A DNA stretch of 64,000 nucleotides from Brevibacterium album DSM 18261 (GTDB lineage: Bacteria; Actinomycetota; Actinomycetes; Actinomycetales; Brevibacteriaceae), in NCBI RefSeq assembly GCF_000426445.1, contig NZ_AUFJ01000009.1:248001-312000 (forward strand), in the 5' to 3' direction. The position numbers were made by a program, and so were the translations under genes. Below, one piece after another: positions 40,971 through 61,851 of this stretch (position 1 is its first letter; each line of letters opens with the position of its first letter). The notes under the pieces are model-generated. The model was not told where the DNA came from, searched no databases, and saw only the letters and a list, made by a program, of their open reading frames with translations.

Positions 40971-41023
40971 AAGTTGCGTCTGCGCACCGGCCGTGATGCA
41001 CGGCCGGCACGCAGACGCAACTT
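40971..41023 (+). terminator. terminator after thiolase/acyl-CoA dehydrogenase operon
   Basis: 25-nt arms (40971-40995 with 40999-41023) pair with two mismatches around a 3-nt loop. Confidence 0.75.
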
Positions 41024-44824: not shown

Positions 44825-44856
44825 GGTGTGCGCCGCCGACGCCGGCGGCGCACACC
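44825..44856 (+). terminator. second hairpin after binding protein 1
   Basis: A perfect 13-bp stem (44825-44837 with 44844-44856) with a 6-nt loop. Together with the one at 44778 it may reduce rather than end transcription into copy 2. Confidence 0.5.
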
Positions 44857-44962
44857 CTCACCCACAGCAACCGGAGCGACAGCACGGTCGCCCGGCCTCA
44901 GCGCAGCTGAGACCCCTGAGCACGGACGTGCTCGCAGAAGTTCGACTCGAAGGAGAGCCGAG

Positions 44963-46261
44963 ATGACGACAGTGAAGACAGTCCGCTCCGCACTGCCCCG
45001 TGCGGTGACCGCCGTCGCCGGGGGCGCAGCCCTCGCCCTCGCACTCACGGCCTGCGCCGGATCCGCCGGCACGGAAGGCGGAGGCAGCGGAGAAGGCTCA
45101 GCAGAGGGGTTCGAGTACGGTGCCGCCCAGGAGGACGTCGACGCGCTCCTGGCCGACCTCGATCCCGTCACCATCAAGTTCCAGCCCTCGGCGGCCTCGC
45201 CCGATTCCGTCATGGCGCCGGCCGGCACCGTCTTCAAGGAGATGGTCGAGGAGCGCTCCGGCGGCAAGATCGAGGTCGAGCTCATCTGGGGCCAGGCCAT
45301 CGCCGGCTACGGCGAGGTCCACGACGCCCTCTCCGACGGCCGCCTCGACATGGCCTACACCCTGCCCCCGTATCAGCCCGCGGAGTTCCCGGCGATCAAC
45401 GACCTCGGCACCGTCATGGCGGCGCTGCCGGCCTCGCCCTTCCACGGCGAGCTCGTCGCCAATGCCGTGGGCAATGAGCTCGGCTGGGAGAACGAATCCG
45501 TCCTGGGCGCCTACGAGGAGCGGGGACTGACCCCGCTGACGCCGCTCGCGGCCTCGGGCGGCTACTACTCCGTGTGCACGAACCCCGCGAGCTCCCCCGA
45601 TGACTGGCAGGGCCTGCAGGCGCGGGCCGGCTCCAGCTCGCAGGGCAAGCTCATCCAGCACCTGGGCGGTTCCCCCGTCTCGATGGAGTACGCCGAGACC
45701 TTCGAAGCCCTCCAGCGCGGCACCGTCGACTGCACCGTGGGCCAGCTCGTGCCCTCCGCGGAATCCGGCATCTTCGAGGTCGCACCGCACCTGGGCTACT
45801 CCACGACGGCGAGCATCCCGCGTCTGCCCGGCGCGTACCTCGCCGGCTCGAGCTTCCAGGACCTGCCGCTCGCGTACCAGCAGATCATCTTCGACTCCAA
45901 CGCCCTCGCCTCCTCCGGCGGCATGCAGGCGGTGATCGGCGGCAACGCCGCGGCGGTGGGCCAGGCGAAGGAGGCCGGCGGCGAGGTGACCGCGTTCAGC
46001 GACGAGCTGCAGGACCAGATCGCCTCGTACTCCGAGGAGCTGACGAACGAGGCGATCGGCAACGGCCACATCTCCGAGGACATCCTCGCGGAGATCACCG
46101 CGAAGCAGTCCGAATGGGACGAGCGGTTCACCGAGCTCGGCTACGAGGACCAGGGCACCGTCGCGGACTTCGACGAGTGGTTCGATCCGGAGACGGACTT
46201 CCTGCCCTACGCCGAGGCCAGCTACGAGAACGGCAACGCGATGGAGCACCGCCCCAACTGA
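44963..46261 (+). CDS. TRAP transporter substrate-binding lipoprotein (DctP family), copy 2
   Basis: A 432-residue lipoprotein with lipobox LTAC near residue 31. The DctP core reads ERSGGKIEVELIWGQAIAGYGEVHDALSDGRLDMAYTLPPY, and the region of the ligand Arg is GLQARAGSSSQG, differing from the VRIAS of copies 1 and 3. The changed pocket neighbourhood suggests a changed ligand. Start at 44963 behind AAGGAG. No membrane component follows, so it probably uses DctQM upstream. Confidence 0.92.
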   Translation: MTTVKTVRSALPRAVTAVAGGAALALALTACAGSAGTEGGGSGEGSAEGFEYGAAQEDVDALLADLDPVTIKFQPSAASPDSVMAPAGTVFKEMVEERSGGKIEVELIWGQAIAGYGEVHDALSDGRLDMAYTLPPYQPAEFPAINDLGTVMAALPASPFHGELVANAVGNELGWENESVLGAYEERGLTPLTPLAASGGYYSVCTNPASSPDDWQGLQARAGSSSQGKLIQHLGGSPVSMEYAETFEALQRGTVDCTVGQLVPSAESGIFEVAPHLGYSTTASIPRLPGAYLAGSSFQDLPLAYQQIIFDSNALASSGGMQAVIGGNAAAVGQAKEAGGEVTAFSDELQDQIASYSEELTNEAIGNGHISEDILAEITAKQSEWDERFTELGYEDQGTVADFDEWFDPETDFLPYAEASYENGNAMEHRPN

Positions 46262-46366: not shown

Positions 46367-46405
46367 TGTGATCCCGCGTGTGATCTCGCGTGTGCTCGTG
46401 AGAGC

Positions 46406-46456
46406 GGTCTGCCGTGCGAACGGCCACAGAGGGTTCTCGCGTTCGCACGGCAGACC
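46406..46456. repeat. palindromic element, copy 1
   Basis: 17-bp arms (46406-46422 with 46440-46456; core GTCTGCCGTGCGAAC) around 17 nt. It recurs after binding protein 3 with conserved outer flanks (CGTGAGAG before) and TTCTCGC before the right arm. Confidence 0.75.
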
Positions 46457-46562
46457 ACGCTGCGGATGGGGGAAGGGGCCTCGCGCACGCCTTTGGGCAA
46501 GCGCCCCGCGCACGACTCTGAACATACGCTCGATCACCCTTCCGAATGTGGGCTGCGTCACA

Positions 46563-46568
46563 TACAGT
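46563..46568 (+). promoter_or_regulatory. weak -10 candidate before binding protein 3
   Basis: TACAGT fits TANNNT; TTCCGA at 46540-46545 is 17 bp upstream. The preceding terminator makes a separate promoter plausible. Confidence 0.3.
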
Positions 46569-46599
46569 CTCCTTAGCGTCGACTCGAAGGAGAGCAGCG

Positions 46600-47898
46600 A
46601 TGACACACAGGACGACAGTCCACAGGCACGCGACCACGGCCTCGGCACTCACAGCAGGAGGTGCGGCACTCGCCCTTGCGCTCACCGCCTGCGCCGGATC
46701 CGCCGGCACGGAAGGCGGAGGCGGCGGAGAAGGCTCAGCAGAGGGCTTCGAGTACGGAGCCCCCCAGGAGGACGTCGACGCGCTCCTGGCCGACCTCGAC
46801 CCCGTCACCATCAAGTTCCAGCCCTCAGCCGCCTCCCCCGACTCCGTCATGGCACCCGCAGGCACCGTCTTCAAGGAGATCGTCGAAGAGCGCTCCGGCG
46901 GCAAGATCGAGGTCGAGCTCATCTGGGGCCAGGCCATCGCCGGCTACGGCGAAGTCCACGACGCCCTCTCCGACGGCCGCCTCGACCTCGCCTACACCCT
47001 GCCGGTCTACCTCCCCGCCGAATTCCCCGCGGTCAACGACCTCGGCACCGCACTCGCCGGCATGCCCGCCTCCCCCTTCGTCGGGGAGCTCGTGACCAAC
47101 GCCGTGGGCAATGAGCTCGGCTGGGAGAACGAATCCGTCCTCGAGGCCTACGAGGAGCGCAATCTCACCCCGTTGACCCCGCTGGCCGCTTCCGGCGGCT
47201 ACTACACGGTCTGCAACCGGGAGGTGGACAGCGCCGACGACTTCGCCGGCCTGCAGGTGCGCATCGCCTCGGCCTCGCAGTCGGCCCAGGTCCAGCACCT
47301 GGGCGGCTCTCCCGTCTCGATGGAGTACGCGGAGACCTTCGAGGCCCTCCAGCGCGGCACCGTCGACTGCACCCTGGGTCAGCTCGTGCCTTCGGCGGAG
47401 TCCGGCATCTTCGAGGTCGCGCCGCACCTCGGCTACACGACGACCGCGAGCTTCTCGCGCTCGCCCGGCGCCTACCTGGCCGGCTCGAGGTTCCAGGACC
47501 TGCCGCTGGCCTACCAGCAGATCATCTTCGACTCCAACGCCCTCGCCTCCTCCGGCGGCATGCTCGCCGTCATCGGGGGCAACGCCGCCGCGGTGGGCCA
47601 GGCGAAGGACGCCGGCGGCACCGTCACCGCGTTCGACGATCAGCTGCAGGAGGAGATCAGCACCTACTCCGCCGAGCTCACCGAGGAGGCGATCGGCAAC
47701 GGCCTCGTGAGCGAGACCCTCACCGAGGACGTGCAGGACAAGCGTGCGGAATGGGAGGAGCGGTTCGCGGAGCTCGGCTACGAGGACCAGGGCACCGTCG
47801 AGGATCTCGACGAGTGGTTCGACCCGGAGACGGACTTCCTCCCCTACGCCCAGGCGAGCTACGAGAACGGCAGGGCCATGGAGCATCGCCCCAGCTGA
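46600..47898 (+). CDS. TRAP transporter substrate-binding lipoprotein (DctP family), copy 3
   Basis: A 432-residue lipoprotein nearly colinear with copy 2: lipobox LTAC, ERSGGKIEVELIWGQAIAGYGEVHDALSDGRLDLAYTLPVY, GLQVRIASASQS (ligand Arg) and LPLAYQQIIFDSNALASSGGM. The differences concentrate around residues 205-235, next to the substrate pocket. Start at 46600 behind AAGGAG. Divergence after duplication points to widened substrate range of one TRAP transporter (inference). Confidence 0.92.
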   Translation: MTHRTTVHRHATTASALTAGGAALALALTACAGSAGTEGGGGGEGSAEGFEYGAPQEDVDALLADLDPVTIKFQPSAASPDSVMAPAGTVFKEIVEERSGGKIEVELIWGQAIAGYGEVHDALSDGRLDLAYTLPVYLPAEFPAVNDLGTALAGMPASPFVGELVTNAVGNELGWENESVLEAYEERNLTPLTPLAASGGYYTVCNREVDSADDFAGLQVRIASASQSAQVQHLGGSPVSMEYAETFEALQRGTVDCTLGQLVPSAESGIFEVAPHLGYTTTASFSRSPGAYLAGSRFQDLPLAYQQIIFDSNALASSGGMLAVIGGNAAAVGQAKDAGGTVTAFDDQLQEEISTYSAELTEEAIGNGLVSETLTEDVQDKRAEWEERFAELGYEDQGTVEDLDEWFDPETDFLPYAQASYENGRAMEHRPS

Positions 47899-47978: not shown

Positions 47979-48010
47979 CATGCGTGGTCCAGCACGTGCG
48001 CGTGAGAGTC

Positions 48011-48059
48011 GTCTGCCGTGCGAACAGGAAAAGGCGCTTCTCGCGTTCGCACGGCAGAC
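48011..48059. repeat. palindromic element, copy 2
   Basis: 15-bp arms (48011-48025 with 48045-48059) matching the arms of 46406-46456; the loop differs in sequence. Confidence 0.75.
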
Positions 48060-48089
48060 CACAGCGCCGGACGGTCCGAGCTCGGCCGC

Positions 48090-57808: not shown

Positions 57809-57881
57809 CCACTCCTGTCTGTGAAACAGGAAAATCGCAAACCTGGGGGTGCGGGCATCAGCCGCGGAGCGGGCGGCGGAA

Positions 57882-57933
57882 CGTATGCAGTTCCTGCAGG
57901 ATTCAGCGTCTACAGCCGCAGGGAGTGCATACG
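57882..57933. repeat. 52-bp palindromic element, copy 1
   Basis: Starts CGTATGCAG and ends GTGCATACG, with inner GCAG/CTGC-type pairing. Same 52-bp length as copies 2 and 3 and the most diverged of the three. Confidence 0.75.
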
Positions 57934-57974
57934 CGGCGGAAGGACCGGAGCGGGCAGCGGCGCTCCGGGCTGCG

Positions 57975-58026
57975 CGTATGCACTTCCTGCAGAGATCAGC
58001 GCTCAGCGCCGCAGAAAGTGCATACG
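57975..58026. repeat. 52-bp palindromic element, copy 2
   Basis: Outer arms CGTATGCACTT and AAGTGCATACG, inner ATCAGCGCTCAG centre. Direct orientation to copy 1, 41 bp apart. Sits just downstream of the trans-sulfuration gene stop, so may also terminate its transcript. Confidence 0.8.
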
Positions 58027-58046
58027 CTGTGGAGCGGCCCCTGCGT

Positions 58047-59279
58047 TCAGGCCCCGGCGACGCCGAGCGCGCGGTCGAGGTCAGCCCACAGGTCCTCGAC
58101 GTGCTCGATCCCCACGCTCAGCCGGATGAGGCCCTCGGGCACGGTGAGGGGCTCGGCGGTGTGGCGGCGTCTGCGCTCGATGAGGCTCTCGACCCCGCCC
58201 AGCGAGGTCGCGGGCGTCCACAGCCGGCATGCCTCCACTGCGGCCTCGGCGGCCTCGGCGGAGCCCAGGTCGATCGAGATGATCGCGCCGAACCCGCTCA
58301 TCTGCGCCTTCGCCCTCTCGTGCCCGATGTCCGCGGACAGCCCGGGATAGCGGATCGCACGCACGGCGGGGTGGTCGGCGAGACGCTCGGCGACCACCTG
58401 CGCGCTCTCGCAGGCCCGCTCCACCCGCAGGGCCAGGGTCCGCAGTCCGCGCAGAGCCAGCCAGGCCTCGAAGGGACCGGCGATCCCGCCGCGGATCGAC
58501 CTGTCGTGCAGCAGCGCATCGCGCACTCCGGAATCCTTCGCGACAGCGGCGCCGAGCACCACATCGGAGTGCCCCGCGAGGTACTTCGTCACCGAGTGCA
58601 CCACGACGTCCGCACCCACCTCGAGGGGGCGCTGGAGCAGGGGCGTGGCGAAGGTGTTGTCGGCGATGACGAGGGCCCCGTGGGCATGCGCACCGGAGGC
58701 GAGCGCCGGAAGGTCCGCGACCTCGAGCATGGGGTTGGTGGGCGATTCGACCCACAGGACGACCGCGTGCTCGCCGGGCCGGGCGGTGTGCCTCAGCCCC
58801 GCCTTCTCCTCGGCGGCGCGGGCGACGGCGGCGAGGACCGCCTCGGTGTCCGCGATGTCCACGGTGACGAGGTCGAAGCGACCCTTCTCCGCGGTCTCCT
58901 GCGCCCCCAGGAGGGCGCCCTGGTAGGTGTGCTCGGGCATGATGACGGTGCCGCCGGGGGCCGTGAGCTCGAGCGCCGAGGCGATCGCGGCGAGCCCGGA
59001 GCCGTACAGCAGGCCGGGCAGCTCGCAGCCCTCGAGCCGGGCGAGCGCCTCCTCGAAGGGGTCCCAGGTGGGATTGGAGTAGCGGCCGTAGGCACGGGCG
59101 CCGTCCGCCACCGCACCCGTGCCCACATAGGTGGACGAGACCATGATGGGCGGGTTCACAGGGGCGTCATCCGTGCGCGGCGGTCGAGCAGTCTCGACGA
59201 CCACGGTCTCGGGGCGGAGGGGGGCGGCGGCTGTGTGCGCGGCGGCTGCGGGCTGGGCGGAGTCTCCGGGGTGCGACAT
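58047..59279 (-). CDS. PLP-dependent trans-sulfuration enzyme (cystathionine gamma-synthase/lyase family)
   Basis: A 410-residue Cys/Met-metabolism PLP enzyme. It has YGRYSNPTWDPFEEALARLEG, LLYGSGLAAIASAL, WVESPTNPMLEVADL, the aldimine Asp in VIADNTFATPLLQRPLEVGAD, the PLP Lys in HSVTKYLAGHSD, and RLSVGIEHVEDLWADLD. It makes or breaks a C-S bond of cystathionine, homocysteine or O-acylhomoserine; direction cannot be read. ATG 59279 lies 6 nt after TACCCT (59291-59286) with no ribosome site, suggesting a leaderless mRNA. Confidence 0.9.
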   Translation of the reverse strand: MSHPGDSAQPAAAAHTAAAPLRPETVVVETARPPRTDDAPVNPPIMVSSTYVGTGAVADGARAYGRYSNPTWDPFEEALARLEGCELPGLLYGSGLAAIASALELTAPGGTVIMPEHTYQGALLGAQETAEKGRFDLVTVDIADTEAVLAAVARAAEEKAGLRHTARPGEHAVVLWVESPTNPMLEVADLPALASGAHAHGALVIADNTFATPLLQRPLEVGADVVVHSVTKYLAGHSDVVLGAAVAKDSGVRDALLHDRSIRGGIAGPFEAWLALRGLRTLALRVERACESAQVVAERLADHPAVRAIRYPGLSADIGHERAKAQMSGFGAIISIDLGSAEAAEAAVEACRLWTPATSLGGVESLIERRRRHTAEPLTVPEGLIRLSVGIEHVEDLWADLDRALGVAGA

Positions 59280-59285
59280 GGGATC

Positions 59286-59291
59286 AGGGTA
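59286..59291 (-). promoter_or_regulatory. -10 box directly before the trans-sulfuration gene
   Basis: TACCCT, then GATCCC, then the start ATG. The -35 region is not convincing. Confidence 0.35.
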
Positions 59292-59409
59292 GACCTCGTG
59301 AGGGCCGCGTCCCCCGCCTGTCCGCAATGTGCACGGCCGTGACGCGGTTCCGGGCGGACGGGAGGAGCCGCCCGGGAATGCCATCCGCGAGGCGGCACTG
59401 CGATTCAGA

Positions 59410-60393
59410 TCAGACCGGCCGGCGGATGACCCGCAGCAGGTCAGCGGCCGGCCCGCGCAGGCGGCTTCCGGACGGCCAGAGTGCGCGGAGCCTGCGGGCG
59501 AGGCGCACCTCGGGCACGTGCGGGACCTCGACCAGCGCCCCCGTCCGCACCGCCTCGTGCAGTGCAAGCCGTGAGAGCGCGCACGGTGCGATGCCCGCAC
59601 GTGCGGCCACCCGAATCGCCGCGTTCGAGGCGTGCTCGGCGGCGATGGCGGGCCCGCCCCAGGGTGCGAGCGCGACCTCCACCGCATCGCGCGTGCCGGA
59701 ACCGGGCTCGCGGACGAGGAGGGGCGCGGCCGCGAGCTCCTCCCCCGTGACCGGCGCCGTGCGGTGCGCCCACGGATGGTCAGGACCCACCGCGAGGATG
59801 AGCTCGTCCTCGCCGATCACCTGGGAAGACAGCCCCACCGGAGCGCCCGGCGCCTCGATGAGCCCGAGGTCCGCGCGGCTGGAGCGGACCGCCTCGGCGA
59901 CGTCGTGGGAATTGGCGACGTCGAGCTGGATCCGCACCTCGGGATGGGCGGCGCGGAACCGTTCGAGCCACACCGGCAGGAGGAACTCCGCCACCGTGAG
60001 GGACGCGCACACGCGTACCTGCGCCGTGCTCTCCTGCCGCAGGGCGGCGATGCCGGCGCTGAGGCGGTCGAGCCCGTCCACCACCGGCTCGGCCCATGCG
60101 GCCACCGCCCGCCCCTGTTCCGTGAGCGCGGTGCCGCGCGGGGAGCGGACGAGCAGACGAAGGCCGGTCTGCGCCTCGAAGGTGCGCAGAGCGCGCGAGG
60201 CATGGGGCTGCGCGAGTCCGGCCGCCCGCGCGGCCTCGCCGATCGAGCTCAGCGTCCCGCCGCGGCCGGCGCGCAGGAGATGGACGAGGAGGAGCAGGAC
60301 GCGGGTGTCCGGCAGATCGCGGACCGGGAGGGAGCCGATGCTCTGGTCCGGCTCTGCGCGGTTCGGCCCGGCGGGACTCGGAGGCAGGGTCAT
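59410..60393 (-). CDS. LysR family transcriptional regulator
   Basis: A 327-residue LTTR. HTH at about 45-95 (TLSSIGEAARAAGLAQPHASRALRTFEAQTGLRLLVRSPRGTALTEQG) preceded by an unusual 30-residue leader, then the two-lobed co-inducer domain (from VRVCASLTVAEFLLPVWLERF) as in regulators beside YeiH exporters and sulfur genes. Divergent from the YeiH-like gene, which it probably activates. Confidence 0.92.
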   Translation of the reverse strand: MTLPPSPAGPNRAEPDQSIGSLPVRDLPDTRVLLLLVHLLRAGRGGTLSSIGEAARAAGLAQPHASRALRTFEAQTGLRLLVRSPRGTALTEQGRAVAAWAEPVVDGLDRLSAGIAALRQESTAQVRVCASLTVAEFLLPVWLERFRAAHPEVRIQLDVANSHDVAEAVRSSRADLGLIEAPGAPVGLSSQVIGEDELILAVGPDHPWAHRTAPVTGEELAAAPLLVREPGSGTRDAVEVALAPWGGPAIAAEHASNAAIRVAARAGIAPCALSRLALHEAVRTGALVEVPHVPEVRLARRLRALWPSGSRLRGPAADLLRVIRRPV

Positions 60394-60412
60394 CTCCGCA
60401 GTCTCCCACAGC

Positions 60413-60431
60413 CCATACAGATCCGGTATGG
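60413..60431. promoter_or_regulatory. LysR-type operator candidate
   Basis: CCATAC-N7-GTATGG contains ATAC-N7-GTAT, fitting the T-N11-A LTTR box, in the 94-bp divergent gap. A TGAGA-A-TCTCA palindrome follows at 60438-60448. Confidence 0.55.
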
Positions 60432-60487
60432 GGTGGGTGAGAATCTCAGGCTACCGCCGAGGCCGGCCCCGGCGGAGAGTGGCAGGC

Positions 60488-61609
60488 ATGTCCTCTCCCG
60501 CCCCCTCCCGCCAGTCCTCCGCACCCACCGTGCATGCGGGCATTCGCGCTCTTCTTCCCGGCCGCGAGGTGCTGCCCACCCGTGCGATGCTGCCCGGACT
60601 CGCTCTCGCGGCCGCCGCGACCCTCGCCTCCGTCCTCCTCGCCAGCACGCTCAGCGCGCTCAGCCCGCTGCTCGTCGCCATCGTCCTGGGCGCGGTCATC
60701 GCGAACGCGGCCCGCCTGCCGACAGTGCTGGCGCCCGGGCTCGGCTATGCCGCGAAGACGCTGCTGCGCGCCGGCGTGGTGCTGCTCGGGGCACAGCTGG
60801 CCCTCGGCGATGTGCTCGCGCTCGGGGCGGGAGGCCTCGGCCTCGTGGTGCTGGTGGTGCTGGCGGGATTCGGGACGGCGCTGCTGAGCGGGCGGCTGCT
60901 GCGCGTGCCCGCCGATCTCACGCTGCTCGTCGGCGCGGGCTTCTCGATCTGCGGGGCCGCCGCCGTCGCCGGAGCGCACTCCGCGGTGCGCGCGACCCGG
61001 GAGCACGCGGCTGCCGCGGTCGCGCTCGTCGTGGCCTTCGGGACGCTCATGATCGCGCTCGTGCCGCTGGTGAGCGCCGCGCTCGGGCTGTCTCCCGAGG
61101 CCGCGGGTCTGTGGGCGGGCGCGAGCGTCCACGAGGTAGCGCAGGTCGTGGCGATCGGCGGGATCGTGGGCGGCGGGGCGCTGGAGACGGCGGTCGTCGC
61201 CAAGCTCGCGAGGGTCGCCCTGCTCGCGCCCGTCGTCGCCGTCCTCGCCGTCACCGGGGCACGTGCGGTGCGTACGGCATGCGCCGCGAGAGCTCCCTCG
61301 GAAGGAACCTCGGCAGCGGCACCCGCACCCTCCGCCGGCCCCGTGGCCCGAACCCCGCTGGTCCCGGGCTTCCTCCTCGGCTTCTTGCTGCTCGTGGCCG
61401 TACGCAGCCTCGGCTGGATCCCGGAAGGCGCGCTGACCCCGCTGGCGACGGTGCAGACCGCATGCCTCACGGCCGCGATGTTCGCCCTGGGCACGCAGGT
61501 GAGCGTGGGGCAGCTGCGCAGGCTCGGCCTCGGCCCCGTGCTCGTCGCCGCTCTCACGACGCTCGTGGTGGCGGCGCTCGGCCTGGGCGGCGCCCTCCTC
61601 CTGGGGTGA
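60488..61609 (+). CDS. YeiH family putative sulfate exporter
   Basis: A 373-residue membrane protein of the UPF0324/YeiH type with about ten segments: GYAAKTLLRAGVVLLGAQLALGDV, GAGFSICGAAAVAGAHSAV, AGLWAGASVHEVAQVVAIGGIVG and a C-terminal FALGTQVSVGQLRRLG. Family members are annotated as sulfate or sulfite-linked exporters on limited evidence. Start at 60488 behind GGAGAG. Together with the LysR gene and the trans-sulfuration enzyme it forms a sulfur-related neighbourhood (inference). Confidence 0.88.
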   Translation: MSSPAPSRQSSAPTVHAGIRALLPGREVLPTRAMLPGLALAAAATLASVLLASTLSALSPLLVAIVLGAVIANAARLPTVLAPGLGYAAKTLLRAGVVLLGAQLALGDVLALGAGGLGLVVLVVLAGFGTALLSGRLLRVPADLTLLVGAGFSICGAAAVAGAHSAVRATREHAAAAVALVVAFGTLMIALVPLVSAALGLSPEAAGLWAGASVHEVAQVVAIGGIVGGGALETAVVAKLARVALLAPVVAVLAVTGARAVRTACAARAPSEGTSAAAPAPSAGPVARTPLVPGFLLGFLLLVAVRSLGWIPEGALTPLATVQTACLTAAMFALGTQVSVGQLRRLGLGPVLVAALTTLVVAALGLGGALLLG

Positions 61610-61657
61610 GGACGCCTGCGCTCCCGGCTCCCGCAGCGGGGCAGCCGTGCGAGCCCG

Positions 61658-61709
61658 CGTATGCACTTCTTGCGGCACTGAGCGCTGATCCCTGCAGGAA
61701 GTGCATACG
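61658..61709. repeat. 52-bp palindromic element, copy 3 (inverted)
   Basis: Its reverse complement matches copy 2 at all but about four or five of 52 positions. It lies 49 bp after the YeiH-like stop, in the 242-bp gap before the MatC-like gene; the rest of the gap shows nothing clear. Confidence 0.8.
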
Positions 61710-61851
61710 TGTCGCCGCGTCACGAGGAGACGCCTCCGGGGCGGGGCCGCCTCCCTCCCCGGACGCGGTATGCTTCTTCGTCGCTCCTGTGAGAGCCCCA
61801 CACCTGCACGCACACGCGCACGTGCCGTCCGCTCGCGTACTCTGAGGAACC

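Follow-up and report, generated by a model that had tools for sequence, protein, structure and literature searches.

The window, a stretch of 64,000 nucleotides of Brevibacterium album DSM 18261, contains three palindromes of identical length, and the question raised by this locus is what these elements are and with which enzyme, if any, they are associated. The first-pass annotation had placed them at 57882-57933, 57975-58026 and 61658-61709, and all of them were found there (Table 1). Their length is constant as claimed, but it is not 52 bp, the conserved core being of 50 bp and the full dyad of 56 bp. The shared ends (GTATG/CATAC) were also recovered, but a 'ATCAGCGCTCAG'-like centre is not a feature of the family, since copy 1 has a different centre. 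A search with a degenerate pattern gave 3 matches in the window and none in 100 shuffled sequences, so that the copies are real and not expected by chance. Copy 3 had been described as almost identical to copy 2 when reversed, and the two agree at 19 of the 22 otherwise variable positions, above the maximum of 16 obtained by shuffling, so that both copies share recent ancestry. Element 2 is located 22 nt from the stop codon of a minus-strand gene of the PLP-dependent Cys/Met-metabolism type, and 50 nt separate the stop codon of a YeiH-like gene from element 3.

Table 1. Palindromic elements located in the window (positions of the whole stretch).
Feature	Coordinates	Strand	Remarks
F6 palindrome	40971-41023	.	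53 bp
F4 palindrome	46402-46460	.	59 bp, first window copy
F4 palindrome	48006-48064	.	59 bp, second window copy, within a tandem duplication of substrate-binding genes
F1 element 1	57880-57935	.	core 57883-57932; left member of a tandem pair
F1 element 2	57973-58028	.	core 57976-58025; 93 bp (9 helical turns) from element 1
F1 element 3	61656-61711	.	core 61659-61708; inverted local relative of element 2

That only three copies were seen is an effect of the window. The search of the full genome and of relatives that the first-pass annotation had proposed gave about 50 copies of this family (F1), mostly intergenic and distributed over 35 sites (15 tandem pairs and 20 singles), and none in relatives; the copies are neither limited to three nor conserved in all relatives, which favours a dispersed family. 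The core (GTATG...CATAC) is of exactly 50 bp in every copy, and both symmetry and conservation reach 3 bases beyond it, giving a 56-bp dyad with the consensus C-R-C-GTATG-Y-R-S-N-N-N-CTGCGC, an unconserved centre of about 16 bp and the inverted repeat, in which GTATG is nearly invariant. In the DNA around the sites, position-weight scores were at least 29 for the copies and below 9 for the next matches, the gap being empty, and a looser pattern with free spacer length gave 47 matches in the genome, 46 of them of exactly 50 bp. No copy was found by pattern search in 56 other Brevibacterium species (one weak match with three mismatches) or in 395 other genomes of the order, and IMG/VR gave 0 matches; F1 is restricted to one Brevibacterium species. 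The Rfam search matched only a tRNA, and nothing relevant was found in the literature on Brevibacterium palindromes.

The first-pass interpretation of a mobile palindrome of the REP/MITE type is sustained insofar as F1 is a dispersed, species-specific intergenic family, but no target-site duplications have been found beside the copies. Classical elements, either REP/RAYT or MITE, whose movement depends on a Y1 or DDE transposase, would fit the dispersion of intergenic palindromes and the existence of local relatives 1.6-3.7 kb apart, of which there are three pairs (577808/579473, 810905/813978 and 305976/309659, the latter inverted); with these local pairs excepted, the copies match each other at the 22 variable positions as shuffled ones do (mean 8.16 versus 8.20). 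However, the Y1/RAYT check proposed in the first pass gave 0 matches to Y1_Tnp (PF01797) in the genome, with positive controls detected, the ends are GTATG instead of GTAG/CGTC heads, and the zero-mismatch half-sites of the strict pattern were all within F1 elements, with 0 as ends of larger transposons. Such an origin is considered very improbable, and movement by a RAYT is contradicted by the absence of this transposase from the genome.

A side role as terminator had also been suggested. Bidirectional transcription terminators or mRNA 3' hairpins would be expected to form strong hairpins, which are predicted for F1, and the siting at gene ends claimed in the first pass holds for most copies, which start mostly 17-60 nt past the stop codon and are enriched in convergent regions (11 of the 35 sites versus 16 per cent of the background). 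However, the hairpin is not followed by a U-tract (no T-run), and the variation of the arms is not that of an RNA. Positions -2, 6 and 7 are purine-only or pyrimidine-only, and there the left and right halves vary independently, with pairing at chance; arm pairing above chance is clear at position 8 and weak at 9-11 and 12-17. With each element oriented according to its upstream gene, the sense strand has 44 G-U pairs, no more than the A-C pairs (53), and the sequence itself is invariant in the arms, beyond mere complementarity. The step at positions 6-7 (57888-57889 in the window, and equivalents) is TG, CA or CG, with TA in 0 of about 50 copies (100 half-sites).

The location of some copies also speaks against the terminator explanation. 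Two sites (C1:907993 and C5:251484) lie between divergent genes (2 of 35, fewer than the 28 per cent of background intergenic regions that are divergent). The linker of an OleBC-like hydrolase/AMP-ligase fusion contains, in frame, an F1 pair with a spacing of 72 bp (L033:2672-2793), a position that speaks against termination at this site. Rickettsia palindromic elements can likewise sit in frame inside proteins; those elements are longer and have near-identical copies, unlike F1, and to our knowledge they have no enzyme partner. Termination as a conserved function of F1 is thus without any sign and is judged improbable. Because the halves vary nearly independently and the sense strand has no G-U bias, an RNA hairpin with compensatory pairing was rejected, and by its pattern of variation F1 behaves as a double-stranded, predicted protein site.

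The tandem pairs are regularly spaced, with start-to-start distances of 72 bp (4 pairs), 73 bp (8), 83 bp (2) and 93 bp (1), equal to 7, 8 or 9 turns of the B-DNA helix. Spacers and outer flanks align no better than background, except at C2:842869, and tandem duplication was therefore rejected as the origin of the fixed spacing. Such distances are those that would be needed for two protein complexes to be bound on the same face of the double helix. The right half of C2 and the contig C8 carry F1 at a several-fold higher density than C1, C3 and C4, possibly because of an origin-proximal bias; a parS cluster at C8:56-61 kb (G000) marks the origin.

These properties are also compatible with fixed, immobile sites, limited to this lineage, of a protein that organises the chromosome or regulates genes, comparable to the sites of RacA, Noc or MatS, with a putative nuclease gene (described below) having simply landed between two of them. 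Sites of a chromosome-organising protein would yield much of the same pattern, including the independent half-sites with helical phasing, the copies unrelated at variable positions and the higher density on the right half of C2 and on C8, which bears the parS cluster. Nevertheless, this explanation is held to be unlikely: locally copied F1 elements exist, whole inserts are found relative to the nearest relative, and like palindromes bracket the same class of enzyme in other genomes.

The nearest relative, Brevibacterium sp. MAG feces_ps_bin.5 (G058), lacks F1 at L053, L045 and L048, the three places at which orthologous DNA was compared. At L045:2570-2880 a 14-bp direct repeat (TGCTGCGCACCTGC) surrounds an F1 pair and its flanks, and the intergenic DNA of G058 at this place is only about 52 bp. 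At L053 a gene for a protein of 326 amino acids (L053:3060-4040) is located between two F1 pairs; this place (F1 pair, gene, F1 pair) occupies 1.74 kb versus 218 bp in G058, which is without both F1 and this gene. The protein resembles MTES_1575, a Vsr/DUF559-type endonuclease, with E values of 1e-5 to 1e-6 that are under the curated cut-off, and it had 0 matches in NCBIfam. In the nuclease part, E222, D253, G267 and R283 are invariant and E264, H270 and D280 nearly so, and weak matches were obtained to Vsr-like structures (PDB 3hrl, E 3e-4) and, distantly, to the mobile-intron nuclease 3r3p. Nothing was found when this protein was searched in plasmid and viral sequences.

The tblastn searches with the L170 protein and its Arthrobacter relative revealed homologs in Arthrobacter and Tsukamurella, and AbiEi models (PADLOC) matched the N-terminal part of six of these homologs (L267, L268 and L271-L274; best E per protein 1e-6 to 6e-18), with no match for L053, L170, L126 or L128. 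An AlphaFold model of the B. celere homolog (L126), made without alignment, was poor (pLDDT 37). Every clear homolog in the Brevibacterium DNA examined adjoins a long palindrome. In the own genome, L170 has F4 on one side only, as has the weaker homolog L168 with F5; L263 of G058 has F7 on both sides, and L126 and its Brevibacterium ortholog L128 have a palindrome on one side only. The homologs of Arthrobacter (L267, L268 and L269) and Tsukamurella (L271, L272, L273 and L274) are bracketed, each by a different palindrome or repeat, the Tsukamurella records being labelled as plasmids and looking like chromosome pieces.

The alignment of 5' and 3' flanks reached a score of at least 56 in 8 of 12 nuclease test genes versus 2 of 405 control genes, with a binomial P of ~2e-16 that is indicative only, because paralogs of the same genome are not fully independent, because the boundaries of some homologs are approximate, and because the list of 12 omits the score of one B. 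celere-type ortholog and contains weak homologs such as L168. The two bracketed controls were a tandem-duplicated substrate-binding gene that carries F4 along and a substrate-binding gene (L181:11691-13113) located between two F2 copies; the latter means that bracketing by itself is no proof of partnership, and a few unrelated genes (L031 and L034) likewise have F1 on both sides. Two bracketing palindromes were checked, and both are dispersed in their genomes. That of L272 is present in T. tyrosinosolvens only, in about 10 copies of 64 bp, all near full length; in nine copies read, the arms are 92 per cent identical and the 18-nt centres near random, and seven dispersed copies start 0-31 nt past a stop codon. 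That of L269 has about 5 copies in one Arthrobacter. From these sequence comparisons, genes for AbiEi-like/MTES_1575/DUF559 (Vsr-like) nucleases tend to sit between matching palindromes, with a different family for each paralog. The transposase partner suggested in the first pass would thus be replaced: Y1/RAYT is absent, but such families appear to accompany a cognate enzyme gene that they bracket. For F1 itself the bracketing of a nuclease gene concerns one locus, L053, whose flank-alignment score is 38 (p 0.011), and this pairing is the weakest link. A search of open-licence papers found none tying DUF559/MTES_1575 proteins to such palindromes.

Besides F1, at least five other families of palindromes with fixed length exist in this genome. 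The general palindrome scan covered about 0.66 Mb and the family scan about 0.83 Mb of it, so that the counts for the other families come from sampled DNA: F2 (55 bp) has 18 copies, 17 of exact length, F3 (62 bp) 8 copies, F4 (59 bp) 6, F5 (72 bp) 3 and F6 (53 bp) 2, and these copies are also mostly at gene ends. In the window a gene for a TRAP-type substrate-binding protein is tandemly duplicated (44828-46261 and 46546-47898), two F4 palindromes flank one of the copies, and these gene-end palindromes were duplicated together with the gene. G058 carries F6 and a 57-bp family, F7. For each of these two families, one copy is at an orthologous place in the two species, its arms being altered and its centre diverged; the window F6 is kept at L243:9997-10051 of G058, with a wholly different centre of 7-9 nt. 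This retention of F6 and F7 at orthologous places means that any mobility must be slow. A near-perfect palindrome of 56-70 bp with a short conserved centre, F8 (CTACCTGACGGCGGCCCAGCAACCT...; L098, L104, L115, L117 and L207), is common to B. sediminis, B. epidermidis, B. iodinum and relatives.

The closest parallel among known systems is the REP/RAYT partnership, or REPtron (Nunvar et al. 2010, PMC2817692), in which a pair of inverted REPs invariably flanks the RAYT gene. As in that system, the palindromes are dispersed, extragenic, species-specific and often paired, a nuclease gene is enclosed on both sides by its own palindrome (for F1, at L053 only), and different paralogs have different families. 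Nevertheless, F1 is not a member of REP/RAYT, because the RAYT enzyme is absent and the type of palindrome differs: REPs are hairpins of 20-40 bp with a GTAG/CGTC head, whereas the elements described here are dyads of 50-72 bp with random centre, F1 behaves as double-stranded sites, and the enzyme would be an AbiEi-like and Vsr-like nuclease instead of a Y1 HUH transposase. Together, the F1-type families and the nuclease look like a system parallel to the mobile palindromes of REP/RAYT that had not been recognised before.

Two other systems resemble parts of this arrangement. The operator bound by AbiEi is an inverted dyad of 49 bp made up of 23-bp half-sites, which are most conserved at their outer 11 bp; each half-site takes one monomer, whose wHTH is placed on these outer bases (Dy et al. 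2014, PMC3985639). F1 is of similar size, with a conservation gradient that is strongest outward; unlike here, where tens of sites and a nuclease are present, AbiEi acts as an antitoxin, lacks a nuclease domain and has a single operator. The EDxHD homing endonuclease I-Bth0305I, of the same Vsr-like superfamily according to the weak profile match, acts as a dimer on a long target of nearly 60 bp (PMC3943268), with mobility by cutting, a property that is predicted for its counterpart here. Homing endonucleases cut the empty allele and insert an intron, whereas in this case the palindrome itself is dispersed.

Taken as a whole, it is somewhat probable that F1 elements are dispersed double-stranded recognition sites of a cognate MTES_1575/DUF559-type nuclease, in a REP/RAYT-like partnership built on another enzyme, whose binding, cleavage and mobility are predictions from sequence. 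The L053-type protein would bind F1, the nuclease would cut at or near it, and this activity would have spread the copies. In the predicted enzyme a DNA-binding part of the AbiEi type would be joined to a Vsr-like endonuclease. Each of two subunits would read one half-site of about 20 bp, with CRCGTATGYRS as its outer and CTGCGC as its inner part, and the two would come together above the 16-bp centre that neither reads. From the AbiEi operator and the I-Bth0305I target we infer that the arms are read by such a dimer, which may cut within the centre or close to it. Paired sites would be kept on one face of the helix, and the enzyme gene would be enclosed by its own palindromes, which in the course of time would have multiplied within one species and been retained where harm is small, just past stop codons, between convergent genes or in a protein linker. 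As a speculation, resemblances between arms, or to a neighbouring arm in inverted order, would fit copying during break repair or template switching.

For Actinobacteria, we give even chances to the existence of a whole class of selfish or domesticated units, each composed of an AbiEi-like/Vsr-like nuclease and a private 50-75 bp dyad that co-evolve, the dyads seeding gene ends across the genome with centres uncopied or unconstrained; this would be a second, unrelated invention of the REP/RAYT strategy. There is a fair chance that the F1/nuclease system deserves its own class. The DUF559/MTES_1575 proteins are annotated as hypothetical or endonuclease-domain proteins whose role is not known, and the bracketing by palindromes gives these enzymes a predicted DNA target that is directly testable. 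If true, a second kind of enzyme would be added to the REP-type palindromes, and the gene-end palindromes that resemble odd terminators in these genomes would be explained.
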